NCBI GenBank assembly: GCA_964017235.1
Contig: OZ024935.1
Coordinates: 2,108,001-2,172,000 of the forward strand
Reading direction: 5' to 3'
DNA length: 64,000 nucleotides
From: Sabellastarte sp. h YS-2021
Lineage: Eukaryota > Annelida > Polychaeta > Sabellida > Sabellidae
The position numbers and the translations under genes are program-made. Within the stretch, counting starts at the first letter, position 1, and the number at the start of each line of letters is the position of its first letter. This document shows, piece after piece, positions 9,000-44,117 of the stretch. Under the pieces are notes generated by a model. That model was not told the origin of the DNA. It saw only the letters and a list, made by a program, of their open reading frames with translations, and searched no databases.

Positions 9000-10395
9000 C
9001 AACATGTTTGAGAATTTTATTTACATGTTAGTAGAACTGTACAGTGCAGAATTTTAAAATGAATAAAATTTATTTTAAAAATCACCATAATATCAAAGTA
9101 TCATAACATAAAAATAAATACAATGGAATAATTACACGGTCAAAGTGATGCTTTCAGCTCAAAATCCACAGGTGAAGCAAAGGTCACACACAAGGTCAGG
9201 GTGGGGATTGCAAATTATATGTCATGAGCAGTGGTGTGGTCTGTTATAGTTTAGTGGGGTTTTTCCCCTTTTCATATGTCTTTGGGATATGATGTTTGTA
9301 CTGTGTGTATGTGCAGTGGCCACGCTTCCACCCCCTTCTTCTGTGATAAGAGTTAGAATCCTGGCCAGACCTGAAATGGGAAAGCTGGTAGTTGCTTGCT
9401 GTTGATCCGTAATTTACAGTACATGACCTTGACCAACTGTACATAGTGGTTTAAACTACCCATTACAATATAAGTAATATAAAGGTTCTAGGTGTGGCAT
9501 AAAACAGTAAATAAAAAATTGCTTTGACCAGCTTTTCGTTTAGTTTACAAGATCATTCTAGTCTTAATACATCCTCCACAAGACAAATAATCTAGGTTAT
9601 CCTATTTACTTATCATTATGTGCCTTGGCAGATGTCAACACTCTCCTGTTACTCTTCTACACTATGCACTCGGTCTAAAAATAAAAACAGAAACCCTTGC
9701 AGTTGCTACTAAGATGGAATAATTACAAGGTCAAAGTGATGCTTTCAGCTCAAAATCCAAAGGTGAAGCAAAGGTCACACACAAGGTCAGAGTCCAGCTT
9801 ATGACACAGAAAAAACATGTTTGAGAATTTTATTTACATGTTAGTAGAACTGTACAGTGCAGAATTTTAAAATGAATAAAATTTATTTTAAAAATCACCA
9901 TAATATCAAAGTATCATAACATAAAAATAAATACAACAATCATTTTGGTATAGGTTAAAAGTGTTAGTGGTTAGTTTGACAACACGTAATCAAGATAGAA
10001 AGTTCATGGACAGAATGAGGTCGAAAGGTCACAATTGAGGTCATGTTTGAGAGGGGGAACCAGGGTCAGCCTGGCCCAGCCTATCCCAAGGTCACACTAG
10101 CCAATATCAATCCATAAGGAGAACTCCCTTCTGGCGAGACAACCAGAAGGGGTCCCGGCAAGTGAAGGTCAAACAGTTTTATATCAAAAGTTGACCAAAC
10201 TTAAGGAAACTGGCTGCAAGGGATCCTAATCATAACCCTGAAAGTGGATCAAGCCAACGGGGTGTGTAGTCGGTAGGGAGTACCCAGGTATGATCTGGAT
10301 CTGCCTGTTAACCCCTAGCCTTGCTGCCTGTGGGAGGGGTAACCACACAGGAAGAAACGTGAAATAATTGTAACAGAGGGGGGATAGGTGGGTAA
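9000..10395. repeat. Repeat mosaic at the 3' end of the Ngaro/DIRS-like element
   Basis: Three repeats interleave. Unit X (begins ACATGTTTGAGAATTTTATT) lies at 9001-9124 and 9814-9937. Unit B (CAGTTGCTACTAAGATGG, then GGAATAATTACACGGTCAAA and GTCACACACAAGGTCAG) lies at 9700-9791 and 10591-10682, with a shorter copy at 9124-9199. A segment of about 270 bp at 9203-9473 recurs at 11584-11859. No gene is visible. B copies on both sides of an A repeat are what split-direct-repeat elements show. Confidence 0.65.
9203..9473 (+). repeat. About 270-bp repeat containing SINE-like sequence, copy 1
   Basis: Nearly identical to 11584-11859 (copy 2, in the 5' region of the LINE). The second half (GGGAAAGCTGGTAGTTGCTT, TTTACAGTACATGACCTTGA, CAACTGTACATAGTGGTTT) is the body of SINE family 1 without its 3' end. 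The short open frame on the minus strand of both copies is a by-product of this repeat. Confidence 0.75.
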
Positions 10396-10590
10396 ATTCA
10401 TAGATGTTAACGCTTTGCTGTTCATTTTAAAAGTGGCGGCCAAACTCCCGCCCTAAGAGAGGTTCTGTAACTAGTGATGTGATTGGATGGTTTACACCAT
10501 AGACTTCACAATGTGGGTGCTAGGTGTACCTAAAGTTTTTGAGGTTATTATCAACTGCCACGCCAGGCTCCTGCATAGCCATGCCATTCA
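10396..10590 (-). repeat. Internal split direct repeat A2
   Basis: About 195 bp nearly identical to 24044-24239 (shared AAATTCATAGATGTTAAC, GTGGCGGCCAAAC, GATGTGATTGGATGG, CTCCTGCATAGCCATGCC). In element orientation it follows B1 directly, at the junction CAACTG/TGAATGGC. Confidence 0.75.
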
Positions 10591-10621
10591 CAGTTGCTAC
10601 TAAGATGGAATAATTACACGG

Positions 10622-11216
10622 TCAAAGTGATGCTTTCAGCTCAAAATCCACAGGTGAAGCAAAGGTCACACACAAGGTCAGGACTGGACATAAGTAAATG
10701 TTGGAGAGGGAGGGGATTTGGACTACATGGTGAGCTTTTGAATCTTGTAGGGTCTTAGTCCATTTGATTATTATATGAGCCCCAGGGGGGCCAAATATCA
10801 CGTCTTTGTGTAAGAGGTGTTTGTTGGGGTCGAAGGCCAAGATACTATAAGGGACAATATTTGACATGCGCAGAAAAGCAAAGTAAGCAGTTAGAAAAAA
10901 TGGCCCTATACAGAATGAGATCAGGAAGAAAGTTGCATGCCAAAGAAATTTTGTATAACATTTGAATGGTAAATATCCCTCTGGGGGTGGGGGAAAAGGG
11001 TAAATTAATAGTGATACTCCTGAGGTATTTACTGATGGTCTCATGTTTGGTGGGAGTTGGGTCCAACTTGTAATGAGAAGCCATGGTTGAGATAGAAGCA
11101 AGGTAATTTTTGATCAATTTCAGAGAAAGTGAGTTATTGTATAGATATTCTAAGAAGATAAGCAAATTATGAACACTGATGACCAAAGGAAGGTGCAGGA
11201 ATATAAGGGATGACAA
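10622..11216 (-). pseudogene. Tyrosine recombinase (integrase) of the Ngaro/DIRS-like element
   Basis: Two overlapping minus-strand frames (11216-10845 and 11101-10622) carry a tyrosine recombinase N-terminal and early catalytic part: NSLSLKLIKNYLASISTMAS, the long hydrophobic segment ending FFLTAYFAFLRMSNI (the catalytic Arg is expected within FLRMSN), and DVIFGPPGAHIIIKWTKTLQ. A frameshift separates the two halves near 10900-11000. The second-half residues (H-x-x-R, H/W, Tyr) are not seen before repeat B1, so the enzyme is truncated. In working elements it integrates a circular DNA intermediate, which explains the lack of target-site duplications in this order. Confidence 0.7.
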
Positions 11217-11315
11217 AACTGTTCTGAAATGTAGACGATGAGTTGCAGAGGTGGAAGGTCTATGTGAGGCCGCTATCCTACTCCATGCTGCTTCAAAGAG
11301 ATGATTGGAATGTGA
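11172..11315. repeat. 144-bp target-site duplication, left copy
   Basis: Identical to 19377-19520 except for one base (GTTGCAGAG here, GTTGCCGAG there). It belongs to the Ngaro-like element, which would be contiguous if one copy and the intervening DNA were removed. It is therefore best read as the target duplication of the LINE insertion. Confidence 0.8.
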
Positions 11316-11583
11316 CTTTAGACTTTCAGGATTTTATGTTAATTGTTAAATCAAGTAATTTTAAATCTATCACCTCATCATGATCTATATGGACAATGAC
11401 TCTAGATTGATTGATCATGAAGTTATTTATGCATTACTAATTTCTGATACTATATTTACATATTTTAACGAGATTGTGTATATCAATTGACTTGTATATA
11501 ATTTTTAGTAGTAACTATATATATACATTTATTTTGTTAACTGTATTAAATAAAGAGCCCTCAACTTCGTGTTTTACTGTCTT

Positions 11584-11859
11584 GGGGTGGGGATTGCAAA
11601 TTATATGTCATGAGCAGTGGTGTGGTCTGTTATAGTTTAGTGGGGTTTTTCCCCTTTTCATATGTCTTTGGGATATGATGTTTGTACTGTGTGTATGTGC
11701 AGTGGCCACGCTTCCACCCCCTTCTTCTGTGATAAGAGTTAGAATCCTGGCCAGACCTGAAATGGGAAAGCTGGTAGTTGCTTGCTGTTGATCCGTAATT
11801 TACAGTACATGACCTTGACCAACTGTACATAGTGGTTTAAACTACCCATTACAATATAG
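11584..11859 (+). repeat. About 270-bp repeat, copy 2
   Basis: Second copy of 9203-9473, here inside the presumed 5' region of the LINE. Its right edge diverges after CCATTACAATATA. Confidence 0.75.
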
Positions 11860-11910
11860 ATTTAGTAATATAGATTTAGTCTATAAAGAGAAAAAAGGTG
11901 TATAGAATAT

Positions 11911-12206
11911 AATGGACTACCAAACTTGGATAGTAAATATGGATTTTAGGATGTGTTAGACATTAAAGTTCAGGTGAGCAGTAATACCAGATTTTACCAG
12001 ATCATGGGGGACAGGAAATTGACATTTTGGATGGAGTTTATTTGTTGACTTTCTTACAATGGACTACCAAACTTGGATAGTAAATATAGATTTTAGGATG
12101 TGTTAGACATTAAAGTTCAGGTGAGCAGTAATACCAGATTTTACCAGATCATGGGGGACAGGAAATTGACATTTTGGATGGAGTTTATTTGTTGACTTTC
12201 TTACAA
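11911..12206 (+). repeat. 147-bp tandem repeat, two copies, LINE 5' region
   Basis: Copy 1 is 11911-12057 and copy 2 is 12058-12204, differing at very few positions. Each starts AATGGACTACCAAACTTGG and ends GTTGACTTTCTTAC. Tandem monomers upstream of ORF1 often carry the internal promoter in L1-type elements, so this is a candidate promoter array. Confidence 0.8.
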
Positions 12207-12408
12207 GACCATATGGAAAATCAGTCATTTGAAGCTTAATTAACAAAGGGGCTTGTGAAAAGTGTATTGAAAAATGCATTGAAACTTCATTGGAAGTGAT
12301 AGTCACAATACAACTAAGACTAAGTGTTAAGATCTCATCAGTATAAAAACATAATTCTGCCACCTTGATTACTGTATCTTACAAAGGCTATATAAAAATA
12401 CAGTGAGA

Positions 12409-13793
12409 ATGTCTGATCAGACCCCAGCAAAATATGTTCGATCACATAGTGATGTGGAGCCGGACACTCCCTCACCCTCCATTACACCTTGATTACTGTA
12501 TCTTACACTCCCTCACCCTCCATTACACATCAGCCTAAAGCAAGTAGGCTTGGTTTAACTGGCACATGTGATAGCTCAGATTTACTGTACACAGGGCAAA
12601 CGATTCATACTAGGGACATACTAGAAATGATAAAGGATGAAATGAGGAGCAATTTCAGATTGATACTAAAGGAAGAAATTGCAGCTGGAAATAATAGTCT
12701 GCTGTCAAAGCTGGAGATATTAAAAAATCAGTTAGAAGCACAGGGTAAAGAAATTGAATTGTGCAAAGATGAGTTAAGGAGAGAGAGACAGCTGAGAAAA
12801 AATCTTGAACAGAAACTGTTGAATCAGGAGACCTACTCAAGAAGGGACAATCTACTTTTCTCGGGAATAGCTGAAGAAAGAGGCGAGACCTATCAAGACT
12901 GTGAAAGAAAAGTAATACAAGCACTGGCACATACAGGACTAGGGAACCTCAATCCTAGAGCTGTGGTACGTGCTCACAGAATTGGGAGACCACAGATCAA
13001 ACCTGGAGGAAGACCAAGACCAATTTTAGTGAGGTTCTTAATGTATAAAGACAGACAGTATACTTTTGAAAACCGTAGTGCATTGAGACAGAGTAACATA
13101 TTTGTGAATGAAGGCTTTCCAGAGGAAGTGGCAAAACGCAGGCAAGTACTAACTCCTTTATACTGGGCAATGCACAACTACACAGCTGATGGTAAACAGT
13201 TCCCATACAGGCAGCCTGTGAAATTGGTGTCTGATAAACTAATTTTCAATGGACAGCCATACACAAGTGATAATGTACACAAACTACCATCAATGTTCCA
13301 ACCAGAGACTGTTGCCTCACCTTCAAGACATGGAACGACAGCCTTCTTCACTTCTTCAAGTCCACTGTCCAATCATCACAGAAGCTTTTTCCAAGTTGGA
13401 AAAAAAAGTTACAACTGTGTGGAACAATACCTCATGTTCCAAAAAGCCTGGCTATTTAAAGATGAGGAAACTGCTGAAAGAATATTGGCTTCTGAAGATC
13501 CAAAAGAACAAAAGAGGTTGGGATATAGAGTGAATGGTCTAAGGAAGGATGTTTGGGAAAGTAACCGGGACAGAATTATGAAAGTGGCACTGGAGGCAAA
13601 ATTTGAGCAGTCTGAACCATGCAGATCCTTTCTAAAGGGTACACAGAAAACCAGACTAGTGGAGGCAAACCCGAATGACAGATATTGGGGAGCTGGACTA
13701 GGGTTAAGAGATAAAGACATTTGGAATCACAACAAATGGAAGGGACAAAATAAACTAGGAGATATGCTGATGGAAATTCGTGAGAAACTGTAA
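12409..13793 (+). CDS. LINE ORF1 protein with C-terminal NADAR domain (frameshifted near N-terminus)
   Basis: The frame is open from 12489 to TAA 13791-13793. The likely original start is ATG 12409, but an extra 41 bp at 12488 puts a stop at 12490 and shifts the frame. The first ATG inside the open frame is 12627. Domains, numbered from 12489 as residue 1: coiled coil about 50-115 (EEIAAGNNSLLSKLEILKNQ); RRM-like L1-ORF1 core about 120-205 (NLLFSGIAEERG, VRAHRIGRPQ, RPILVRFLMYKDRQ); basic C-terminal ORF1 part to about 265; then a full NADAR/YbiA domain at 286-434. NADAR signatures seen: VEQYLMFQKAW with Glu312, the IMKVALEAKF helix, LVEANPNDRYWGAGLGLRDK with W400-G401, and NKLGDMLMEIRE. NADAR enzymes cleave N-glycosidic bonds of ADP-ribose-like or riboflavin-pathway substrates, and some remove ADP-ribose from guanine. 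L1-type ORF1 proteins coat element RNA. The fusion is unusual and its role is unknown. Confidence 0.88.
12464..12528 (+). repeat. 41-bp templated insertion breaking LINE ORF1
   Basis: ACACTCCCTCACCCTCCATT occurs at 12464 and again at 12505, a 41-bp offset. The DNA between the copies (CACCTTGATTACTGTATCTT) also occurs upstream at 12361-12380. The extra piece thus joins a 5'-UTR segment to a duplicated coding segment. Because 41 is not a multiple of 3, it creates the stop at 12490 and the frameshift. Confidence 0.75.
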
Positions 13794-15433
13794 AACTATA
13801 AATTTAATCTATAAGATAAATGTGATGAGTGACAAAGTTTTATTGGAATGTTGGAAGGTAACTTGGGCTTTATCTAACCTGTGATACTGTATACATACTT
13901 TGTTAGTATATGACCAGTACACCATACTTTAACAGTCGTGCAATTGTGAGTAATGTTGTTGATACAATGAAAACTACAAATCTAGCTAAAATGCAACAGT
14001 TCATACTAGGATGCATTACTGATTTGAAGAATGTAATATGGGACTTAATTACTTAAACGTTGTCATCACAGTCTCCTAATTAACTTATAATTATGTGTAA
14101 TTGCTGGTTCTTTTATAAAACAATAAAAATACTTAAAAGTGATCAAAACACAATTCAATATTTTGTCAATATTGACTTATATATTGGGTGAATGAGCTAT
14201 ACGTGTTGAAAATTTATTGGGCAGTCTGGTAGTTAACACACAGTTTGATATGATGGCCTGTATGTCATAAAATCAATAAAAACCAGGTTGACACCAGGTA
14301 AAATAAGATTGGTTTATCGAAACTCTGTTCGTGAGGTGTTAGTGTTAAAAATACAAAATCATTCTGATCAAAATACATTTGAAAGTTAAAAATACAAAAT
14401 CATTCGGATAAAAATACATTTGAAAGTTTATTAGCAATATTGGGCTGTAATGTTTAAATTTTTTTTTTAATACAAGATTTGCTTGGCAACACTATAAAAC
14501 ATTATAAATACCTTTGGATAAAAGATAACAGTTCAGCAATTGATTTCAAAAACTGGTAACACTTAGCCTAATATAGAGTTCAAGAATGTTTAATTATAAG
14601 AATGTATGTGTGTAGATAGAGTCTTACAAGTTAATTCTATTCTCATCTAATTGATGGTAGTAGAATAAACAAAAATAAATCTTCAAGCCAGTGAAAGCAA
14701 CATCGTATTTCTAATATACTTGATTTTCTCCTGTAAAAAGGGATTTATCAACTTAATGTTCTGATGGTGCTGTGGCTTGTATGGAACTTACAATATATCA
14801 GCTTGGTGGTACTTTCATGAAAACTATAAAGCTTGAGTCATGTTAAAATGCAATGGTTTGAAACATTTTAATAGTCTATTCATATTCTTTGTGTCATATT
14901 CTCAGCTGTAAATTTGTAATACATGAATATAGACACAGTAGCCTTGCTATGCTATTGGACTCATGATTCTTTTATACTCCTTTTCAGTGTTGCCTTAGAG
15001 TCTGTTTAATGCTTGAGATTAAGCGCTATAATAAGTGTACATTAGATTAGATTTTACAAAATTATGTTTGTTGCAGGCTCTTGCTAAATTTGTTGTTGAA
15101 CGATACAGTTATACCATTTAAATGTAGATGTCCATAGGTGATGAAATGAAGATTTTGCTGCTCACCAAACAAAATATTTAACCTTAAATATGTATTGTGT
15201 AGCCATTTATGGTTATTGTGTTGTCTTGATTGATATCTGTGTGTATATGTGTTCGTGTTTTTGTATTACCTCTGAAATAACTCCTTTGATTGAAAAATGT
15301 AACTGCAAGGATGTTACTAAACCTGTCTCAATAATGTTGGTCTTGGGCAAGGCATTCAAATTTATGGCAACAAAAGTATCAGAGACATTAAACCAAAATA
15401 GATATCGACCTCACTACATTGGATTTCACTTAC
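13794..15433 (+). other. Spacer between LINE ORF1 and ORF2
   Basis: 1.6 kb, AT-rich, with no recognised coding sequence. It has a 41-bp tandem duplication at about 14343-14426 (GTTAAAAATACAAAATCATT twice) and, near 15000-15055, a stretch resembling other LINE tails (GAGATTAAGCGCTATAATAA). The short frame 15190-15444 just upstream of ORF2 matches nothing I know. The spacer may hold the 3' end of an older insertion. Confidence 0.5.
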
Positions 15434-18400
15434 ATGAGCAATAAGTTCGACATAATAAAGTTTAACTCGTTCAACTGTAGGGGTCTACGTGACAAAACTA
15501 AACGAAACCATATTTTTTCTTGGTTAAGAAATTCTCATGCTGGAATTACACTCATACAAGAAACTCACTCAACTGTAGATGATGAAAAAATATGGCAAAC
15601 AGAGTGGGGCAATAACATTTTATTCTCACATGGCACATCTGTGAGCAGAGGAGTGGCTATACTCATTCCCAAAAACATCAAAATTGACCTTAGCATTCTG
15701 TCAACTAAGAAAGATACACAGGGACGGATTCTCACAATAGAATGCAAGTTAGAAGAAAAAATATATATATTCGTAAATATATACGCTCCAACAAAGGACA
15801 AACCTAACGAACAGATTTCTTTTTTATCTAAGCTTAGAGAAATGCTACAAAATTGCAATGGCAACCCTCTGATAATTGGAGGAGATTTCAATACTTGCTT
15901 AAATATAATGCAAGATAAAAGGGGTGGGACTCTTGAAAAAAATTCTGTTTACAGTTATAACATTAAGGGGATATGTGAGGATCTCTCATTAGTAGATATT
16001 TGGAGGGTTAGAAACAAAACAAATCCAGGTTTCACTAGAAGACAGAGAACTAGTGCCGGTCTGGTTCAATCACGCCTTGACTTTTGGCTAATTTCAATCC
16101 AACTTGAATACTTGGTAAAAAATGTATGTGTTTCACCAGGAAATATGTCAGATCATAGTGTTGTAGCGATCGAGATTGAGCTAATAGGAAGCATTAAGCG
16201 AGGTTGCGGGTTCTGGAAGTTCAATAACGACCTTTTGTCTGACCCAAACTATGTACAACTCACAAAAAATATTATAAAGAATGTAAAAGAAAACACTTCT
16301 TTTGAAAATAAGAATACTCTATGGGATTATCTAAAATGTGAAATAAGGTCTCAAACAATGATTTATTCAAGCAAAAGAGCCAAAACATTAAGGAATGAAG
16401 AAGCATATATAAAGAAAAAAATAATACAGCTAGAACAAAATATAGGCGATGAAAACCGTGATAGTTTTCAGGAGTACTTAGATTATAAAAATGAATGGGA
16501 AAAAATAATGGAAAAGCGACATAATGCTATTATTTTAAGATCAAAAGCTAAATGGGTAGAGGATGGGGAAAAGAACACTAAATTTTTTTTGGACTTAGAA
16601 AAAAGAAATTATAACAACAAGTACATTAAAAAACTTATTACGAAAAACAACAAAGAAATAACAACTTTGGCAGACATAATTGAAGAGGAAAAGTGTTTCT
16701 ATAAAGAACTCTATACATCTCAATCGAATAAGTCTCACTTAGCTGATGATTTCCTAAGTATAGACAATATCCCTCAATTAAATTACCATGATCGAATGTT
16801 ATGTGATGAACCGTTAACAATTGAAGAATGTACCAAAGCACTTAAACTGTTAGCAAACAATAAATCCCCTGGTTCTGATGGTTTCACCACCAATTTTTAC
16901 AAATTTTTTTGGATTGATATAAAAGAGATTGTCTTTGAAAGTTATAAATATTCTTTGGACAACGATAACCTAAGTGATGATCAAAAAAGGGGCATCTTAA
17001 ATCTACTACCAAAGCAAAACAAAGACTTGCGCTATTTGGCAAACTGGAGACCTGTTAGTCTTCTACAGACTGACTACAAAATTTTGACAAAAGCCTTGGC
17101 ATTAAGATTGCAAAAAGTTTTGCCAAAAATCATCAGTTCGGATCAAGTAGGATATATAAAAGATAGATACATAGGAGAAAATATCAGAACTCTGGAGGAT
17201 TTAATAATTTATACTGACAAATTTCAAATACCTGGATATTTCGTTCTCATTGATTTCAAAAAAGCTTTTGATTCTATAGAATGGGATTTCCTTTTTAATG
17301 CACTACACAAATTTAATTTCGGGCCACAGTTTATCAAATGGATCAAAATTCTTTATAATGATATCTCTTCCTGTGTAGGAAACAATGGTTATTATTCAAG
17401 TTATTTCAAACTAACAAGGGGGATAAGACAAGGGTGTCCAATATCAGTCTTACTTTTCCTGATTGTGGCAGAAATAATGGCCATTAAACTGAGACAAAGC
17501 AATAACATAAAAGGTATAACCATAAATGGGGAAACTTACAAAGTAAAAATGTTGGCAGACGATACCAGTCTTATCCTAAAAGATATGGCCTCTATAGAAC
17601 TTGCCATAAAAGAATTTCAAGCATTCTCAAAGTTTTCAGGCTTACAACTCAATCTTGACAAGACTGAGATAATACCAATTGGCGTTAATACTAAAAAACA
17701 TCACAAAAAGCCATTGTCATTATCTGAAATCAAAATTAGAACTGGGTGCTTTAAAACTTTAGGTGTATGGTTTTCAAAAAGTGTTAAAGAAATGGTTCGT
17801 TTAAATTTTGAAGAACGGGTAGAAGATATGAGAAAAATATTGTGCATATGGAATGTCAGAAATCTATCTTTAAAGGGGAGAATTACAATCATAAAGTCAC
17901 TGGTTCTGCCTAAGGTAACTTTCTTACTGAGTTTGATTTATGTCCCAAAAGAAGTACTTGATAGAATAAATAAAATACTCATGGATTTCTTATGGAGACA
18001 CAAAATGTCAAAAATTAAAAAAGAAACTATAACAGGTCTTATTGAGGATGGAGGACTAAAAATGGTGGATGTTCATAAAATGAATATTGCTGCCAAGTGC
18101 GCCTGGAAAAAACGCCTTGTTTGTAGTGAAAATGTTAATAGTAAAGTTTTGTTTTTAAAAATGTTGTCTATCAATGAATTCATGTTGAACAAAAAAATAA
18201 GTCTTTCTTATATACAAAACTGCCTGTCTCCCTTTCATCAACAGGTACTTGAAAGTTGGGATGATTTCTATGGCATGGAACCAGTGTCAAACTCTGAAAT
18301 TCTAAATGAATATGTACTGTACAATAAAAATATTAAAATTGGCAAAAGACCCATCACAGTAAATCAATTCCCAAATAAATATGGCAACAATCTGAAAATA

Positions 18401-19234
18401 TTAGATATACTAGATAATAATGGTTGCATATTAAAAAGGGTCAATCTTAATGAAAAGTTAGAATCGGACATAAGTCAAATGTTTTACAATTGTATGTTGA
18501 CCGCTGTACCTGTAATTTGGAAGAAACAGGTAATGCATGAGAAATTGAATAATATAGAGCGCTGGTCAGATGATGTTATGCTTTATATAAATAAGAAATT
18601 AATACCAATAGAAAAAGTCAGTAGTAAATTAGTATACACTCATTTGATCAAAGAAAATACAAAACCACCTACATCATAAAATGTATGGGTTGAATTATAC
18701 CCCTTTTTGGAAAACTTTAACTGGAGTCATGTTTTCAGATTACCATATAAAATTATGAAAGAAAGTTATATTCAAAGTTTTCAATATAAAATCTTGAACA
18801 GAATCTTAAATTGTAATTATAATTTACATAAATGGGGCATCAAGGATTCACCACTCTGTATTTACTGTAAAAAAACTGACACCATTCAGCACCACCTTTA
18901 TGAGTGTAAAGACAGTATGACACTATGGATCAAAATTGGGGATTGGATATATGAAAAGTTACAAGTAAAATTTAAATTTACTGTTTGTGAAGTTATTTTT
19001 GGCTTACCATTAACAGAAGACCCATTGTTTGACGTGTTGAACTGTATTATAATGTATGTAAAACATTACATAAATGGTAAAAGAAACAAAAATAAAAGTC
19101 TCTTGTATGTTGAACTCCTTGGTTTAATAAAAGAAAAAGTCAAAGTATTAGTCCAAATTGAAGAAGATGGTTGCCCTGTTATAACAGATAGGGGCAAGAT
19201 TAAAGTGGCCTTTTATAAATTGCTTTTGGTTTAA
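15434..19234 (+). pseudogene. Tx1/L1-like LINE ORF2: APE endonuclease, reverse transcriptase, zinc knuckle; one internal stop
   Basis: First ATG is 15434; the frame runs to TAA 18677-18679 and continues in the same frame to TAA 19232-19234, so one nonsense codon interrupts about 1,266 codons. Domains: an APE-type endonuclease at about 15450-16190 (FNCRGLRD, LIQETHS, NIYAPTKDK, GGDFNTC, LDFWLIS, DHSVV); RT at about 16830-17700 (NKSPGSDGFT, NWRPVSLLQTDYKI, DQVGYIKDRYIGENIRTLED, IDFKKAFDSIEWDF, RQGCPISVLLF, LADDTSLIL, LNLDKTEII); and, after the stop, a knuckle CIYCKKTDTIQHHLYEC at about 18858. The RT box reads LADD where [FY]ADD is usual, and the GCPxSPLLF box has Val for Pro. The enzyme would nick target DNA and prime reverse transcription there. 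Apart from the stop it looks intact. Confidence 0.9.
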
Positions 19235-19376
19235 CACAGTTTTGTTAGTTATTTTTCTACCTAAGTCCAATCCTTTCATGCATATATTTTGTTCACACTT
19301 GTTCTTGTATTTTGTCTGAAATTGTCTTATTTGTATAATATTTTATATGTATAAACTCTATGTTCTTTCAAAAAAA
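19235..19376 (+). other. LINE 3' UTR and short A tail
   Basis: AT-rich 3' UTR that ends in TTCTTTC followed by about nine A, immediately before the right copy of the 144-bp duplication. Confidence 0.7.
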
Positions 19377-19520
19377 AACACTGATGACCAAAGGAAGGTG
19401 CAGGAATATAAGGGATGACAAAACTGTTCTGAAATGTAGACGATGAGTTGCCGAGGTGGAAGGTCTATGTGAGGCCGCTATCCTACTCCATGCTGCTTCA
19501 AAGAGATGATTGGAATGTGA
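19377..19520. repeat. 144-bp target-site duplication, right copy
   Basis: Matches 11172-11315 with one mismatch. After it the Ngaro-like element resumes. Confidence 0.8.
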
Positions 19521-19722
19521 AGTCAAACCTGAAATTACAAGAAAAGGTCAAGGTTAAAATGGGAAGGTGATACCCTTTCCCAGATACAATTCTGCTGAAG
19601 GTACCTAAGCAGCTGCACATCAACTGGTTTACTAGAATAAAGATAAGATAAGAGGTGTGCTTTGGTGTTGAGATGTCCTGGAATATGTTGAATCTGAAAG
19701 TGAATGTCAAAAATAGCAGTAA

Positions 19723-20187
19723 TTAGCCACAAGTTGCGTATACATGCACCCAGGAAGAAATCTTTAGTTTGGACTGGACTACTGCTTCATTATCACAATA
19801 TATCTTGACCTCAGAATGCCTCCAGCAAGGACCCCATAAATGTAATGCAACAATGATGTTAAGCATCTCAAGATGCACAATAGTGGGGGTAAAGCCTGGT
19901 ATAACAGGTATTGCGGCAGAATACACTCTGTCATGCCATATGCCGCCCATGCCCGTGAGAAATGCTTCGAGATGTAAGGCTTCAGATTCAGGAATGTTTG
20001 GTTTCTTATAAATGGTGGTGCCATTAAAATGGGGCAGAAATTGGATAAACCAATCAAGGTCTTTGAATAATTCTGTGGAAAGGTGAATCCTTCTCTTGTG
20101 GGCATTGTTACGAAGTAGGTCTAACATTCTGTTAACAAATATTCTAGCAGGGATCACACATTTGTGAAGGTAGATCAGTTTACCCAA
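19723..20187 (-). pseudogene. RNase H-like domain of the Ngaro/DIRS-like element
   Basis: Minus-strand frame 20187-19723 begins GKLIYLHKCVIPARIFVNRM, typical of the connection after RT. It continues with LFKDLDWFIQFLPHFNGTTI and an RNase H pattern: EALHLEAFLTGMGGIW (first acidic position degenerate), VHLEMLNIIVALHLWG (Glu) and VKIYCDNEAVVQ (Asp in CDN). It would remove RNA from the RNA-DNA hybrid. It lies downstream of the RT fragments in the same orientation and is cut off by the 144-bp duplication and LINE. Confidence 0.75.
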
Positions 20188-20851
20188 GAGAGATTGGAAA
20201 TTTTTCTTAGATAGATACTTCCTACCACTTATGTGGTGGCATTCCTTATGGATGGCTGCAAGCTTCTCGGGTTCGATGCTGAGGGATGCTTCAGGTATAT
20301 TTATACTAATGCCTTAAGGTCCTTACAGGGAGGACATAGCTTGTCCTGCTTTATAGGAAGCCCTAATCGGACTAATAGATCATGGAGATGGTTAAAGTGA
20401 CGCCTAGCGCCATGCTGATCAGCAATGCTAATGTAGTCATCAATGTAGGCCACTACAGTAGCCCCATGCTTGCTCATGATGTACGTGACGGCATCGGAGA
20501 CCATTTGGGAAGGTAGATCAGTTTACCCAAGAGAGATTGGAAATTTTTCTTAGATAGATACTTCCTACCACTTATGTGGTGGCATTCCTTATGGATGGCT
20601 GCAAGCTTCTCGGGTTCGATGCTGAGGGATGCTTCAGGTATATTTATACTAATGCCTTAAGGTCCTTACAGGGAGGACATAGCTTGTCCTGCTTTATAGG
20701 AAGCCCTAATCGGACTAATAGATCATGGAGATGGTTAAAGTGACGCCTAGCGCCATGCTGATCAGCAATGCTAATGTAGTCATCAATGTAGGCCACTACA
20801 GTAGCCCCATGCTTGCTCATGATGTACGTGACGGCATCGGAGACCATTTGG
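20166..20851 (-). repeat. Perfect 343-bp tandem duplication inside the RT domain
   Basis: 20166-20508 and 20509-20851 appear identical throughout. The unit contains the RT catalytic stretch (AYIDDYISIADQHGARRHF) so this is encoded twice. 343 is not a multiple of three, so the duplication also shifts the frame. Confidence 0.9.
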
Positions 20852-31209: not shown

Positions 31210-32340
31210 CTAGGTCCTAGTTTGCTGGTGGATCTGCTGAGCAGCCACTACAGGACCTAAATGGAAGAGCTCTGAATCAGCCCAGGCCACATCCTTCAGA
31301 TAAAACTGTGTGAAGGTATTATGGGATTTCCAGTGGCAAGCTGACAAGATTTGCTCTAACGAAACTCCCGACTGGAAGGCCTTAGAGGCAGCAAAGGCCC
31401 TGACATCATGAGCTTTAACTTGATGCAGGGTGTGGGCTTGATAATCAGAGAGCTCATAGCACAGGATCACAGTCTGCTTGATCCATGAGGAGATGGTGGT
31501 AGGGGAGATGTCTTTGTCGAAACCTCTCTTGAAGGAGACAAAGACTAACTCCTTGTGTTGCCTGAGGTCTGAAGTCCTGTCCAAATAGTAGCGCAAGGAT
31601 CTGACTGGACCCTCTTTGGCCAGCTGATTCTTGGAAAGAAAGCTGGGAGATGGAAACAGGGACACCTTAGACCAATCGGATTGGTGTCTGATGTTCTTGT
31701 GCTGCCATGCATGGATCTCACTTCTTCTTTTGCCAGAGCCCAGGGCCAAAAGGAAGACAGTTTTGAAGGTCAAATGCTTCAGAGATGCCTCCCTAAGAGG
31801 TTCGAACGGGGCCTTTGTCAGCTGGTGTAGTACCAGGGAAAGGTTCCAGGAGGGTATTCGCCTTCGCCCTTTGGGTCTATCTCTGTGGAAACTTTCCAAG
31901 AGATGAGTGAGATTATCATCCTTACTGATATTGACTGTTGTATTACCTAGTTTATCAGCAATGGCAGACCTGTATCCGTCAATGGTGCTGGGCTGTAACT
32001 TCTTGTCCTCAAAGAGGTACAGTAGGAAGTCAGCCACCGACTTTACAGGTGGTGACCTAAAGTCCACCTGATTAGTGATGCACCACTTTGTAAAAATGGC
32101 CCACTTGCCTCATAGACTGATCTGGTTGATCTTCTTTGAGGAGCCTCAATTCTTGCTGCCACTGCCTCAGAGAAGCCTGTTTCGTTGATTTTTGGGGCTC
32201 TAGGAGCCAGGCATGGAGATTTAGATTTGTCAGATTTCTGTGAGGAATCTGATTGAAGGGCTGTGTCAGCAGGCTGGGCAGGTTGGGCAGGCTGAGAGGG
32301 ACCTGACTGGACATGTTCACCAAGTCATGTTGGGCCAACC
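31210..32340 (-). CDS. Tyrosine recombinase of the DIRS element (frameshifts near N-terminus)
   Basis: The frame 32067-31210 (285 residues) holds the core: LLYLFEDKKLQPSTIDGYRS (arm-type N-terminal domain), FKTVFLLALGSGKRRSEIHA with the first catalytic Arg, the box HQVKAHDVRAFAASKAF with H-x-x-R, the CHWKSHNTFTQFYL box with His/Trp position and the nucleophile Tyr. All expected catalytic residues seem present. The preceding stretch (32330-32072, with LNLHAWLLEPQKSTKQASLR) is the N-terminal part in another frame, joined by a frameshift near 32085. The protein would integrate circular element DNA by site-specific recombination. It is the last gene of the element in transcription order, directly after RNase H. 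Confidence 0.85.
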
Positions 32341-34485
32341 CGGGGCAATCAGAATGAGTCTCTTGTACGGGGAGTCCAGTAGCTTCTCCACCACTTTGCC
32401 CAATATGGCGGTCGGTGGAAAGGCGTATGCATCCAGGTCCTCCCATGGCAGAGTCAGTGCATCCACTGCTATAGCCAGGGAGTCCGGTACTGGAGAGACA
32501 AACTGAAGTAATTTGTGGTTGAACCTCGTGGCAAACAGATCTATTTGAGGGAGGTGCCACTGGTTGCATATTTGTTGAAAAACTTCCGGAAGGAGGGACC
32601 ACTCTGTTTGAATGGTTTGACCCAGCCTTGATAGCTTGTCTGCTATGACATTTAAACGGCCTGGGATGTGTCGGGCTTTTAGAGTCACTTGTCGCTGGGA
32701 ACACCAGGTCAAGATTCTCCACAGTAGGGCACACAGTGGGCCCGATCTCATGCCTCCTTCCTTGTTTATGTAAGCTTATGTAAGTATTGTCGGTTGCCAC
32801 TAGAACTATTTTGTCTACACAGAGGTCTTGGAACTCCTTGAGAGCTAGAAACACTGCTTTGAGTTCCAGATAGTTTATGTGCAGCTTGCTTTCCGGCACC
32901 GACCAGGACCCCCTTGCAGTGAACTCGTTTAAGTGAGCGCACCACCCTTTTTTGATGCGTCTGTAAATATTTGCAGAGCATGTCTTATTGGGTGTAATGG
33001 TTGACCTTGAAGCACATTGTCTTCCTCTAGCCAGCATTGTAAGTGAGGGTGCAGGGACCTTGGTAGAGGGATAATCTTCTCCAGAGATTGTGGTACCCTC
33101 CAATTGTTTTTGAGATGCCACTGTATGGGTCTCATGTGCAGTCGGCCGAGGTGAACCTGTTTTTCTGTGGCTGTTAGCAGACCTATCAGGGACATGAACT
33201 GCCGGACTGGACAAGCCGGTAGTGAAAGGAGTACTTGTATCTTGTCCTGAAGGCTTTGCCACCGGTCCGGGGTTGGTCTGACCCCGCCGGACCTGGGGTC
33301 GAATTGGTAGCCTATGAAGTCGAAGACTTGTTTGGGTTCCAGCTCTGATTTCTCTAAATTCACCAGCCAACCTAGGTCCTGGCACATTTTGACTAGGGTT
33401 TGGGTGTGTTGGAGACAGGTTTCTTGGGATCTGGCTCTCACCAACCAGTCGTCTAGGTACTGGTGGATTCTTATACCCTTGCGTATGGCCATCAGTTTCA
33501 CCTCCTTTGCTAACACAGTGAACTCCATGGGCGCTGTGGACAGGCCAAAGGGCAACGCCTTGAATTGGTAAGTCCGGCCCTGGATATGAAATCTTAGGTA
33601 TTTCCTCGATTGTTCCTGTATTGGTATGTGGAAGTAGGCATCCTTGAAGTCTACTGAGGTTACCCACTCCCCTTGTTGGAGGGATGTCCTGATGGTTTCT
33701 GGTGTCTCCATTTTGAATTTTTCCACCTTGAGGAAAAGGTTTAGTTTGCTTAGATCCAGTATTGGCCTCCATTTGTTGTTGGGTTTTGGAACTAGAAAAA
33801 GTCGGTTGAAAAACCCTAGAGAAGTTTGATGCTTTACCAGTTCTACGGCATTTTTGTCTATAAGCTGATGTAATGCCTCCAACAGGTAGCTGTTCCTGTG
33901 GGGATTGACATAGCAGCTTACGACCATGGGAAATCTTGCCAGTCTTGGCCGGGTCTGGAAGGGGAGAGTGTAGCCCTCTCTGAGGATTTGAACAACCTTG
34001 GGACCGGCCCCCAAATCTAGCCAGGTTTGCAAAAAGTTCTGAAGTCTGGTCCCTACAGGCAGATTTTGTGCAGCATTTTTGACATTTGTTACAGGATTTA
34101 CACAATACAATTGAGTGACACAAGAAACACCTTTCACAGAGTTTAATAGACTTCTTTTCAAATGACAGTCTGACACACCGGGACTTACTCCTTTCTTTTG
34201 CGGAGGCCCGTGTGCAGAAGGAACAGGTGAGACAACATGCAAGTTTACATTTAAATTTGAGTTCAAAGTCTGTTCTGTGGAGATGCTCCCGGCCAGCAGC
34301 CGTCTTTGTGGCCTATTGTAACAGTGATTCTCATTTATACGGCTGCTGGCCCTTGGCAGAACGGGAAGAGAAGTTAGCACTCTTGCCTTTAGGTCGTCTA
34401 AACTGTCTTTTGTTGATATTTTTCCATGCGGGTCTTTCCTGCTTGTTTTCCGACCGACCCTCCTGTTTCTTATCATGTCTCTCAT
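32317..34485 (-). pseudogene. Reverse transcriptase / RNase H of the DIRS element (frameshifted)
   Basis: The RT frame 34485-32929 is 518 codons and includes LGFFNRLFLVPKPNNKWRPI, DLSKLNLFL, VTSVDFKDAYFHIPI (first catalytic Asp), RTYQFKALPFGLSTAP, IRIHQYLDDWLVRA (YLDD box) and VFDFIGYQFD. RNase H begins with QIFTDASKKG, then changes frame near 32945 at a run of T (minus A) and continues INYLELKAVFLALKEFQ and VLVATDNT. A second frame change near 32755 leads to TLKARHIPGRLNVIADKLSR (RNase H end) and LFATRFNHKLLQFV down to 32317. Homopolymer slippage explains the first break. The enzyme would copy element RNA. The N-terminal end overlaps the gag frame by about 150 bp. Confidence 0.88.
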
Positions 34486-36506
34486 AAGGGTGAAAACGTG
34501 CTTTCACTCGTGAGGATGTAGCTATCGGCTGGCTCTTGCTATCATAATGTGAGATTTCCTCTTTGGCCCGTTTGATAGCTGACTGTGGGAAAAGAGTAGT
34601 GATGTACAGAGGGCCAGTCCGGAGTGCAGCAAAGGTGTCCGGCTTGATACCATTCTTCAAATGGTTTAGATAAGCGTCTCTCCTAGCCAGAGTAAGGTTC
34701 CCCATGGTAAAAAATACAAATTCAGTCAAATGTTCCATGGCTTTGGCGGCAGCCTGGGTGATGCTGGAGTTAAACTCCATCAGAAATTGTAACTCCTCCG
34801 TGGCTTCTGAAACTTTGGCTGACCCTTTTCCCTTGCCTTCACTACGTACTGTCCTAAGCTGTGACTGCATGTCAGCCTGCACCTTAAAAAGGCAGCGGTT
34901 AAAACTAGCGGCCTGATTACACACTACAGAAGCTTCCCTAGCAGTCCTTTCCCACCTCAGAAGTGTATCCTGGGAGATTCTGGGTGAGGCTGGTGGTGTC
35001 GATGCCAAAGCCGCCTTTCTAGCTATCCGACCAAAACTGCTGTTAAGTTTAGAATGTCCTGTACTCCAAGAAGTGACTTTGGTCGGATCAGCTTGTTGTT
35101 CTGAATAAAGTCCGTACCACTTCAACTGAGGGCGTGGTGGCCTCAAGAATTGATCCATCGGTAGACTACCGGCCTCTGCAGTACGGGAGGGGTATCCCTC
35201 GACCAAAGTCAGATTTAGTTTGTTGAGTTTCTTGCAGAGCCAGTCTTCCATCGGCATATGAACGGAAATCTTACTAGGAGCTGGTGCCTTGGGGCCAGCA
35301 AAAGGGTTGTCATCAGATGGATTCGAGCTGTCTATGTCAGGCACATGGGTCCACCCCATAAAAGAACGTATACCTCGCATGGTTTCTCTATACGTTTGTT
35401 CTTCCGACGTTGGTAAGTCTTGTTCGGTTAATTCCTGTTCATCAGAGAGCTCGCCCTCTTCAACAAACAGTTCCAGGGGCGGAGTGTCTGAAAAAATGCT
35501 CTCTGCATCCGACTCTCCACTGGATATGCTGTCCTTGCCAGATGACTTTTGGAGGGTAGGTGATTCCGAACCAGTGAGACCTGCAGATGAGGGTCGGTCG
35601 GTCGGTGGGAGATCGGTCGGAAGTTGATTTACCAGATTTCTGCACCGACGATGCAGCCTGTCGGTGAGGGTCGGTGTATGGCTTGCCGGTTGACTTATGC
35701 TTACTAGAAGTGATGTCTGGACCAGTGCGCCCTGATGAAGTCTTGGCATGTTGATCCGACTTAGGCTTACCGGCCAACTGCTGCTTGGTAGCAGTAATGT
35801 CTGGGCCAGTGCGCGTGGAAAAAGTCTGATCTTGTGAAGTAGAAACTTGAGGAAGCTTGCCGGCCGACAGCTGCAAGGCAGCATCAGAGTCTGGGCCAGT
35901 GCGCTTTGCAACAGAGTCCACAGGTCGGTGAGACGGCTGAAAGAAAGGCTCTGAGTCCTTAGAAACAGTGGCTGGTGGTGAGTGTACAGGGGTAACCCTA
36001 ACATCAGCAGAGAAGGAAGGTTCCAAAGACCTAGCCAGTAACAATGCTTCCAGCCTGTTAAACCGCTCGGACCATTTAGCATCCATTTCTGAAAACCTGT
36101 CATCCGTACTTGAAGAGGCAGATTTCTTAGACTTAGTACTGGGTTTGTCCTTCTTTGTTTTCTTTTCAGGCGGTACTGATGGTGATTGAGAAGAAGCGGC
36201 TCCACCCACAGCCCCTATAACTGAGACGCTAGCAGGGTCTACTAGGGCAATATCCTCCGTGGGTGTGGGGTTATCCACGCGCTTGGCATCCCGTTTCTCC
36301 TTCTTGAGCTTGTAAGAGGGAGTAGCAAGCTGAGCCCGTTGCTCTGGAGAAAAAAGATTGCAGAACTTACATTCCGTAGTGTCTTTGTTAGCAATACAGG
36401 GTTCCTCACCCTTTCCCTTCTCCCTACAGCGGGCGCAAAATGAGTGTCCATCAAACCCCGCCATGGCATGTCCACAACTGCCCCTTTTTTGTCCAGGGGA
36501 CGACAT
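34331..36506 (-). pseudogene. Gag-like protein of the DIRS element (one frameshift)
   Basis: Starts at ATG 36506 with a Cys-rich N-terminus (CGHAMAGFDGHSFCARC, then TECKFC), a Lys/Ser-rich segment and a Ser/Pro/Thr-rich region with repeated RTGPD words. At about 35600 the frame changes at a GGTC tetranucleotide run (GGGTCGGTCGGTCGGTGGG) and continues in the frame ending at 34331, with an acidic stretch (ELFVEEGELSDEQELTEQDL), a folded-looking core (LRWERTAREASVVCNQAASF, MEHLTEFVFFTMGNLTLARR) and a basic tail. A gain or loss of one 4-bp unit would explain the break. Capsid-like or RNA-packaging role inferred from position. Confidence 0.75.
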
Positions 36507-41588: not shown

Positions 41589-42805
41589 ATGAGAAAAGAG
41601 AAAGGAGGGAAGAGAGGAAGGAAAAAGATGGATGAGAGGGAGAAGGAAAGTCAAGTAGAGGAGAGGAGTGAAGTTATTACAGAAGAAGGAAGTGAGAGGA
41701 GAGAGGAGGAGGAGATTCAGGAAGATCCAGCTATTGGGGAAGCTGTGGCAGAAGAAGAAGAGAGGTGTGAGGAAGATCCGGAGTGCCATTCTTCAGCCAA
41801 GAGAGCCAGGGTGTGTGCCACTTTTACAGACAGTGATGAAGTTTCCATTGTAGAATTCGTCAAGCTGCACCCTGAACTGTATGACAAGGAACATTCACGT
41901 TTCCACGACAGGAATAGAAGAGAGGCTCTCTGGGCAGAAATATCTGCAGAACTTAAGCTCCAGCCCTTTGATGTGAGAAGGTGGTTTGAGTCCCAGCGAA
42001 CCCGTTATGGAAAGCTGTCTAAGCTCCAATCTGGCCAAGCCCCGAGGGAGATGACCAAGAGACAGTCCTGGGTCTACCAACAGATGGGTTTTCTTAAAAC
42101 CCACATCAGAAGAAAGGGGGCCAATAGAAGTTCAGGTTTTGAGGCCAGTCCAAATACCAGCAAGCAGGACGAATCACGTGGGTCAACTACTGACACAGAA
42201 CACCTCGAGTCCAGTGTCCTGAGGGAGAGGAGTCAGTCCATCATTACATCAACACCCGTTTCAACTACAGACTCCAAGATTCTCGAACACTTTGAGCAGA
42301 TGAGGACACTTATCTCAGGTTTTCTGCATCAGAAGTCAGACAGGCAGCCCTTCTTTGACTACGTGGCATCAGAGGCCGAAAAGATGACTCAAGAAGAATT
42401 GAAGAATTAAAGGGCAAGATATTCAGAGATATCGAAAATATTAAGAGTAACCGCAGACGTCAGCCATTGCCCAGAAGATCAGCCACTGTTACCACGGAGT
42501 CCCAGAGGGTCGGCCTACTGCCAACAACCACTCCACAGGCGTCAAGTTCCACTCAAGCAGCAGCTAGCAGCAGTTTTGTGTACTATACACCAAGCCCCAT
42601 TGGCTTCAGCAACCCTACATCTGTCCTAACTGTACAGGACGAAGGGAGCAGACACAATCTGAGTGGAATCTTAAGCCAGCTACCAGATCTGACATCAACA
42701 CAGATCGTCGAGCAGCCTCAGCAGCAGCAGCAACAACCGCAGCAGCAGCTCTTTACTATCACCACTTCAGCACCGCCTCAACAGCAGCAGCAGCCTCCTC
42801 AGTAG
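41589..42805 (+). pseudogene. Harbinger Myb/SANT-like (MADF-type) DNA-binding protein, one frameshift
   Basis: The first frame, 41589-42410 (273 residues), has a Lys/Arg/Glu-rich start, an acidic stretch (about 30-70), then a helical DNA-binding domain of about 85-160: SIVEFVKLHPELYDKEHSRF, RREALWAEISAELKL, FDVRRWFESQRTRYGKLSKL. At about 42385-42405 the coding potential passes to the next frame (RRIEELKGKIFRDIENIKSN), continuing through a Ser/Thr-rich and Gln-rich tail to TAG 42803-42805. One indel thus shortens the protein. In Harbinger transposons this protein binds DNA and partners with the transposase, which is encoded convergently at 45431-44118. The relic at 7250-8210 is a homologue. 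Confidence 0.8.
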
Positions 42806-43560
42806 CCATCCAGTCAGGGCGGGTCTTTGACCTGCCAGGCCCTTTTCAGGGCCACCAATTCTTCCAAAAACAATTATTCAGCTACGTGTTCTTCCAATTC
42901 CCCTCCCAAAACAAAAAAGTTCAGTACAAATACTTATCACAAGAAAAAAAAAATTAAAGTCCAACACTTACACCACCCCAAACATGAAACAAATAACCCA
43001 TGGTACTACACATAACCAAAAAGGCCACATAAAAAAATATTAAAAGTAACTCCCAATATGGCCATTAATCAGCCCATTTTTAGATTAAAATCCATGGGAT
43101 AGTTTAAAATCTGTAATTGAAAAGTCCAACACTTGCACCTTCCCTAGAGTTAAAAGGCATAATTACATACTTACCAACCCACAAACAGACAAACCCAATA
43201 CCAAACATAACCCCCAAATAACAAACCCAGTACCAAACCTAATACCCAACTACCCCAAAAAAACCCAACCCCAGTAACCACCAACCAACAAACACCCAAA
43301 CCCAAAAGTAGATAGAACCCATGCCAACGAACTGACAAACTATTTAGCAAACACAATCCCCCATTATTGAAAGCAAAACTAGTTCCATGGTTATATTTTC
43401 CAAATTTTTGTGATTAGAAATGAATATTTAAAATTGAATATTTCCATAAAAAAATTTCTGCTACAAATAAGTTTCCCAGCCATGAAAAAAGAAAAATGTT
43501 TAAATTATGGTGTGGATTTGAAAATATATAAAATAATTATTCAATTTAGGATATTATGTG
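42806..43560. other. Harbinger non-coding middle, A/C-rich
   Basis: Runs of A and CCCAA/ACCAAAC words (43165-43330) and AT-rich DNA. Short frames here are low-complexity translation. Confidence 0.55.
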
Positions 43561-43599
43561 TCACTTTGTGTTTCGCTTTTGTTTAACAGTGGGTTTGTC

Positions 43600-44031
43600 T
43601 GTTTGTTGGGTGAGTAAGTTGTGTTTGTCTGTTTGTCTGTCTGAACAAGTTATGTTTGGCATGGGGTTTGTCTGTTTGTCTGTCTGAACAAGTTATGTTT
43701 GGCATGGGGTTTGTCTGTTTGTCTGTCTGAACAAGTTATGTTTGGCATGGGGTTTGTCTGTTTGTCTGTCTGAACAAGTTATGTTTGGCATGGGGTTTGT
43801 CTGTTTGTCCGTCTGTACAAGTTATGTTTGGCATGGGGTTTGTCTGTTTGTCCGTCTCAACAAGTTATGTTTGGCATGGGGTTTGTCTGTTTGTACGTCT
43901 CAACAAGTTATGTTTGGCATGGGGTTTGTCTGTTTGTACGTCTCGGCAGGTTATGTTTGGCATGGGGTTTGTCTGTTTGTCCGTCTCAACAAGTTATGTT
44001 TGGCATGGGGTTTGTCTGTTTGTCCACATAG
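43600..44031 (+). repeat. 43-bp minisatellite, about 9-10 copies, inside the Harbinger element
   Basis: The unit AACAAGTTATGTTTGGCATG + GGGTTTGTCTGTTTGTCYGTCTG repeats at 43645, 43688, 43731, 43774, 43817, 43860, 43903, 43946 and 43989 with few differences. Since 43 leaves remainder 1 on division by 3, all three frames read a periodic peptide (MAWGLSVC...), which I regard as spurious. Confidence 0.92.
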
Positions 44032-44117
44032 CTGATTAATTGTTTTTGGAATATTTGGTAGTCCTGAAAAGGACTGTTATAGTTAGTCCTGAAAAGGACT
44101 GTTTACTGCAACAGGAC

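Follow-up and report, generated by a model that had tools for sequence, protein, structure and literature searches.

The window, the 64,000-nucleotide stretch of DNA analysed here, contains one copy, now damaged, of a multicopy LINE in which a type II ORF1 carries a C-terminal NADAR domain, and both this anatomy and the copy status of the element can be regarded as close to certain. Related ORF1s show conservation of the NADAR domain at the protein level, with hardly any change at the active-site residues, and ORF2s of two deeply divergent lineages accompany the fused ORF1. As a fusion this is not novel, because NADAR-like domains of the YbiA family appear to be held by ORF1 of several Crassostrea gigas Tx1 LINE families in Repbase, as noted in PMC12477816 (Genome Biol 2025); like the window element, these are invertebrate L1/Tx1-type LINEs with NADAR in ORF1. 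That report overtakes the remark in an earlier note on this DNA that NADAR is not among the known ORF1 add-ons. In its available text the oyster account is a brief comparison that does not go into copies in the genome, counts of active-site residues, selection or the accompanying ORF2, and the likeness to the window element is one of description, not of sequence. What is new here is the proposed exchange of ORF1, the copy evidence and the active-site conservation; among the matches listed by the literature search, supplements aside, none dealt with NADAR LINEs in terms of their copies in a genome, the conservation of the active site or the exchange of ORF1.

The main ORF1-NADAR frame (12489-13793, +) encodes 434 amino acids plus a stop at 13791-13793. 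It is open from 12453, its first TTG is at 12489 and its first ATG at 12627, and from stop to stop (12453 to 13793, +) it comes to 446 residues. The earlier note had described a coiled coil, an L1-ORF1-type RRM core and NADAR in one frame, and the coiled coil, the RRM/CTD and NADAR are indeed contained in this single ORF. The profile search it suggested for NADAR/DUF1768 gave a PF08719 match of 146.9 bits (E 8.1e-43) against a curated cut-off of 35.1, covering residues 289-434 of the 434 (13353-13790, +) and profile positions 9-162 of 163, so that the domain is near-complete. As a single sequence the window ORF1 matches the solved NADARs 2b3w (YbiA, E 3.6e-14) and 8bau (E 3.6e-11) and, weakly, human LINE-1 ORF1p (E 0.015), while a family profile made from 59 aligned rows matches 8bau with E 2.4e-35 and LINE-1 ORF1p with E 8.9e-14. 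It is through this family profile that the protein is recognized as type II ORF1 (coiled coil-RRM-CTD), PF02994 itself matching 3 of the 59 rows. The alignment to LINE-1 ORF1p takes in the coiled coil and the RRM (residues 70-190; 12696-13058, +), and we infer a CTD-like stretch reaching about 13298.

The start that the earlier note had given, the ATG at 12409, has to be given up, as its reading frame is not that of the main ORF and runs into a stop. The N-terminal codons in that other frame (12409-12463, +) are separated from the main frame by 41 extra bp, formed by a 24-bp direct repeat with a spacing of 41 (12464-12487 and 12505-12528, +) enclosing 17 bases which, together with adjoining ones, match 12361-12383 upstream; a plain tandem duplication was considered for these 41 bp and ruled out. 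In the homologue P0001, 92% identical, the N-terminal part and the main part share one frame. A short conserved motif, RSHSDVEPxTPSPSI, precedes the coiled coil in the N-termini of P0001, P0004, P0006 and P0009.

The N-terminal two thirds of the window protein resemble LINE ORF1 type II of the L1, CR1, L2 and R1 clades (PMC4120745), which as described in the available part of that source has no NADAR and, like the NADAR form, occurs in several clades. An enzyme on ORF1 has a precedent in the esterase of ORF1 type IV from the same source, which is an unrelated enzyme.

That the fusion sits in a retrotransposon with its own ORF2, as the earlier note had it, is borne out 1.6 kb downstream by an ORF2 (15419-18679, +) encoding an APE-type endonuclease and a reverse transcriptase, with Pfam matches to PF00078 (117.7 bits) and PF03372 (48.3 bits). 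Its match to human LINE-1 ORF2p, 295.7 bits over residues 15-886, compares with 72.7 bits for the best R2-type protein, and an L1-related reverse transcriptase together with an APE-type endonuclease places the element in the L1/Tx1 superfamily, human LINE-1 being the only named reference. The reading frame from 15419 to 18676 hits an in-frame stop at 18677-18679, and the copy therefore looks inactive; a C-terminal continuation past the stop (18680-19234, +) has a zf-RVT match of 31.6 bits (cut-off 27.5). Between ORF1 and ORF2 lies an AT-rich spacer (13794-15418, +) with 41-bp tandem repeats at 14344-14425. The presumed 5′ leader (11316-12408, +), of which the first 270 bases or so are only presumed to be LINE, contains a 147-bp tandem repeat (11908-12201), and the 3′ untranslated region (19235-19378, +) ends in A9 (19370-19378). 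A 274-bp stretch inside the presumed leader (11585-11858) is 100% identical to one outside the element (9199-9472).

The whole is flanked by a 144-bp direct repeat, 11172-11315 on the left and 19377-19520 on the right, 99% identical, which is read as a target-site duplication of very unusual length. With the A9 tail and the ten other linked loci described below, this unusually long repeat marks the element as a mobile insertion. Minus-strand fragments that we take to be DIRS-like flank the LINE on both sides (9143-11333 and 19308-20656), and the LINE seems to have inserted into them. A preference for such targets was considered and dropped, since DIRS-like protein matches occur, within the stretches compared, at just 4 of 21 LINE loci of the genome, window included.

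The genome to which the window belongs (1.786 Gb, 647 contigs) was searched for copies with a linkage probe, window 12900-16400, that takes in the end of ORF1, the spacer and the start of ORF2. With 40 of 298 candidates scored and 76 rows grouped by hand, the NADAR part followed by the ORF2 start was found in the same order at at least ten other loci: C8:9163183, C18:33109992, C5:20833788, C14:93164497, C5:14179691, C8:78178592, C6:105986849, C5:135861075, C5:27573352 and C7:67001422. The repeat copies beside ORF2 that the earlier note asked for thus exist. The spacer is almost entire at C8:9163183 (96%) and C18:33109992 (99%) and aligns in pieces at the other eight. A probe of the L015 type, one of the loci described further below, recovered a second complete copy (C14:59871853) along with several others whose starts vary and which reach the probe end, a pattern expected of 5′ truncation. 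Because independent copies of both kinds share the spacer nearly whole, a derivation of ORF1 and ORF2 from two unrelated nested elements is ruled out. Beyond this genome, the protein database holds 58 related clusters, 26-92% identical to the window ORF1, and of the 59 aligned rows, one of them the window's, 57 match NADAR. When database matches to ORF1 and ORF2 were compared for a common contig, none was seen by eye among those listed (120 of 933 ORF2 matches).

The window copy is frame-shifted, its ORF2 has a stop and its ORF1-ORF2 spacer is long, features that could suggest a one-off chimaera or a host gene outside any mobile element. The ten other linked loci, the 58 clusters elsewhere, the second full L015-type locus with its companions of differing start points and the 11-14 bp repeats that flank six copies of the second lineage described below have already refuted that reading, the probability of which is practically nil. 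Neither outcome that the earlier note named as fatal to the fusion, a missing NADAR profile match or a one-off chimaera, came true.

For the active site, the P. nicotianae NADAR, in which E43, K50 and E125 contact ADP-ribose, provides the numbering (PMC11543638). At the equivalent positions of the E. coli C7 enzyme, according to the same source, E88Q is inactive while E88A has a minor effect in vitro, K95 is essential, and substitutions of D171 lose efficient activity. A set of 60 LINE NADARs was assembled from 11 sequences of the window's own genome (that of the window among them) and 49 of the 58 clusters, the 49 being unnamed proteins that are assumed to be LINE ORF1; P0009, P0011, P0012, P0018, P0033, P0048 and P0053 were omitted because the start pattern was absent or fewer than 120 residues remained, as were P0057 and P0058. 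E43 is kept in all 60, K50 in 57 (with Arg in 2 more) and E125 in 59, P0035 being the sole sequence with another residue there; W89 is kept in 59, D130 in 57 and W133 in 54. The window equivalents of E43, K50, W89, E125, D130 and W133 are E312, K319, W356, E392, D397 and W400. In the whole 59-row alignment E43 is present in 58 rows (1 gap), K50 in 52 (4 Arg, 2 gaps) and E125 in 54 (4 gaps). Among 149 well-filled columns, with a median conservation of 45%, E43 ranks 4th, E125 9th, W89 11th, D130 20th and K50 21st. R79, Y84 (often Phe), D86 and R93 are variable, so the contacts on the pyrophosphate and adenine side are not kept.

NADAR antitoxins of DarT1-NADAR systems and stand-alone YbiA-family NADARs belong to the same domain family and have the active-site residues of the window protein (PMC11543638, PMC11125620). 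With E312, K319 and E392, the last-strand residue being Glu and not Asp or His, the window domain falls in the YbiA subfamily. It differs from the DarT1-associated (BC4488) type, in that Glu instead of Asp occupies the E125/D171 position (Glu in 59 of the 60) and there is no DarT match in the genome. The closest bacterial relative among the matches listed is a Cupriavidus plasmid protein at 47%.

Protein-level conservation is also apparent from pairwise comparison of 13 own-genome ORF1s (78 pairs): in divergent pairs NADAR pN is 0.24-0.44 with pS at 0.70-0.94, mostly saturated, and NADAR identity equals or exceeds that of the rest of ORF1, which includes the fast coiled coil, in 78 of 78.

Twenty ORF1-NADAR loci of the window's genome were fetched, picked from 150 scored rows of 2705 first-look candidates mostly for their long open frames, so that their intactness is not a genome-wide rate. 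Of the 20, 19 have a same-strand ORF2 match downstream; the exception, L025, belongs by its DNA to the L019 family. Eight loci have an L1-like ORF2, namely L009, L010, L014 and L018, nearer the window, and L015, L017, L027 and L028, here called A2. The other 12 form lineage B, whose ORF2 in the 11 with a match resembles the window ORF2 around the reverse transcriptase alone, at 23-26% identity by tblastn. Five lineage B copies are open in both frames (L012, L019, L020, L022 and L024), and L019, L020, L022 and L024, with frames of 458 and 1146 amino acids, are 99.4-99.5% alike across 5.7-6.3 kb. Ten B copies were examined for flanking repeats, and six of them (L011, L013, L019, L020, L022 and L023) are bordered by repeats of 11-14 bp; those of L021 and L024 are 7 bp, within chance, and L016 and L025 have nothing convincing. 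Spacers between the ORF1 and ORF2 frames of L009-L028 range from about 0.6 to 3.6 kb, long for LINEs, and some contain repeats.

Trees of the two proteins disagree, and from this an exchange of ORF1 between LINE lineages is drawn. In the reverse transcriptase tree the A2 sequences form a single clade (100/100) that falls on the same side as human LINE-1, the sole named reference, and B is remote (100/100) on a branch of 3.69 that raised a long-branch warning. For ORF1, a pattern-based split of NADAR from the core (L013 and L016, both relatives of L011, dropped out) was followed by an RRM-CTD tree with 41 of the 49 database proteins, those with at least 170 residues before NADAR. There B is one clade (98/95), its sister is L015 of A2 (99/93), and L028, P0014 and P0016 join B and L015 at 100/99; in the NADAR tree too B groups with L015 (98/93). 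AU tests, with groups picked after viewing the trees, reject the A2 clade on ORF1 data (p 1e-48) and L015 plus B on reverse transcriptase data (p 0.023).

An alternative that needs no exchange is a long-branch effect, lineage B ORF2 being a fast derivative of an L1/Tx1-like ORF2. The length of the B branch, the flagged meeting of long branches, the modest p of 0.023 and the post hoc choice of test groups speak for it, but the pairwise identities point the other way: L015 is nearer L028 in ORF2 (48% over 1123 amino acids, against 26% over 345 for L015 and L019) and nearer L019 in ORF1 (48% in the core and 57% in NADAR, against 37% and 50% for L015 and L028). With the strength of the ORF1 rejection, p about 1e-48, also against it, the long-branch alternative appears quite improbable, and the finding of the fused ORF1 with two such different ORF2 lineages is, with considerable confidence, best explained by ORF1 exchange. 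The transfer probably went from an A2-like donor to B. If the exchange is true, the passage of an enzyme-bearing ORF1 from one LINE superfamily to another would clearly illustrate modular evolution, with pressure from the host as a possible cause.

As to the class of lineage B, L019 ORF2 scores up to 90.9 bits against LINE-1 ORF2p and 66.9 bits against R2, and zf-RVT, above cut-off in the window and L015 only and weak in L017 and L019, decides little. The reverse transcriptase motif GVPQGSVLGPLLF is one that we take to link B ORF2 to Jockey/CR1, and by this motif B may be Jockey/CR1-like.

In the unrooted NADAR tree the 60 LINE rows are on one side of a branch (100/100) and 10 of 11 non-LINE rows on the other, E. 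coli YbiA, on a long branch, landing on the LINE side; a single origin of the LINE NADARs is allowed.

ORF1 trimers of L1 coat LINE RNA, and a NADAR fused to such a protein would thereby ride on the ribonucleoprotein. There it could cleave ADP-ribose off LINE RNA, nascent cDNA or bound proteins, and so undo host ADP-ribosylation that would otherwise block retrotransposition. The kept active-site residues fit such an eraser, an idea already raised in the earlier note, and it is the likeliest function, our belief in it being evenly divided. Guanine-N2-ADP-ribose would be the foremost candidate substrate, as its bond is cleaved by members of several NADAR subfamilies, and every one of the tested NADAR/YbiA proteins of E. 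coli and phages cleaved guanine-ADP-ribose in vitro (PMC11125620). The roles of eukaryotic NADARs, animal ones included, are termed unclear in the same source. E. coli YbiA has also been described as acting on riboflavin intermediates, and the substrate of LINE NADARs may differ since the contacts of R79, D86, R93 and Y84, often Phe, are not kept. With a NADAR active site retained on the protein that coats its RNA, and with copies open in both frames, such a LINE makes the relation of ADP-ribosylation to retrotransposons testable.

Three other functions can be weighed against the eraser. Cleavage of small ADP-ribose-type molecules (cADPR variants, NAD-derived) instead of tags on macromolecules, with the ORF1 fusion providing co-expression only, has been proposed for phage NADARs (PMC9503650) and would suit the variation in adenine-side contacts among LINE copies. 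In the fetched LINE loci, however, NADAR forms part of an RNA-binding protein instead of being encoded by itself, which suggests a tethered target, and for the NADARs found in RNA viruses of eukaryotes PMC9503650 names macromolecular targets; the small-molecule role is unlikely. So, to the same degree, is processing or repair of the LINE RNA itself, at its ends, at ADP-ribose by-products of RNA repair or at NAD-derived caps. This is suggested without test in PMC12477816, and a link to RNA-repair systems is discussed in PMC9503650, but the ORF1 and ORF2 proteins scanned have no ligase, KptA or 2H domain by Pfam. Finally, NADAR might merely bind ADP-ribose and target the particle to modified sites, catalysis being unused: the conserved residues also touch the distal ribose and phosphate, and chromatin-reader domains occur in other retroelements (PMC12477816). 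Against this, 59 of 60 sequences retain the residue at E125, the C7 counterpart of which hydrolysis requires, and the adenine-side contacts, which a pure reader should keep too, drift; binding only is decidedly unlikely.

As to a host writer that the eraser would oppose, the DarT profile PF14487 gave 0 matches in the genome, searched in six frames without intron handling, while one control genome gave a match; the Scabin-like PF22596 also gave 0 matches and, the controls being equally silent, is uninformative. Guanine-N2 DNA ADP-ribosyltransferase activity of the CARP-1 kind is reported in six edible clams (PMC11209040), and erasure of the CARP-1 product by NADAR is a stated assumption in PMC11543638. 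Should the host be a bivalve, the writer and the NADAR eraser could come together. More broadly, ORF1-NADAR might be a portable counter-defence cassette against a CARP-1-kind transferase of bivalve hosts, which would have armed LINEs of two superfamilies, partly by ORF1 swap, and a DNA-element-like repeat; this is speculative and rather unlikely. Among the matches listed by the literature search no paper dealt with restriction of an animal retrotransposon through ADP-ribosylation of nucleic acids.

NADAR is carried by other selfish elements. In Ectocarpus it is present in Pol of a Gypsy element, a retroelement like the present one that differs in being an LTR element with the domain in another protein and position, and for which possible horizontal acquisition is suggested (PMC12477816). 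Polyproteins of animal RNA viruses have NADARs (PMC9503650), again in an RNA-based selfish element and on a different carrier protein, the likeness to the LINE NADAR being by description and not by sequence. A search of viral contigs for the NADAR part of the ORF1 fusion gave 5 stretches that fit a pattern and no relative among them.

The window's own genome contains a second multicopy repeat with NADAR. The 38 best NADAR rows of the genome search are short open frames of 167-179 amino acids, and among eight such loci (L001-L008) L001 and L004 each share flanking DNA with the other seven. Near one copy (C1:16776015-16796014, including L029 and L030) there are a dUTPase and a 1002-amino acid frame that is without a Pfam polymerase match and by its motifs is presumably a family-B DNA polymerase; the repeat may be a Polinton- or adintovirus-like element. 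A BIR-RING protein some 7.5 kb upstream may lie outside it, and L030 holds 166-bp tandem repeats. The NADAR of this repeat clusters with those of bacteria and phages in the NADAR tree and was for this reason probably captured separately. The literature search returned no paper with both whole words 'polinton' and 'nadar'.

Elsewhere in the window, long and partly overlapping ORFs at 31210-36506 (-) include DIRS-like recombinase and reverse transcriptase matches within 31231-32679. A MADF/Myb-like protein (41589-42410, +) and a DDE_Tnp_4 transposase (44118-45431, -), both by Pfam, lie within 41589-45431 and are presumably a Harbinger-like pair.
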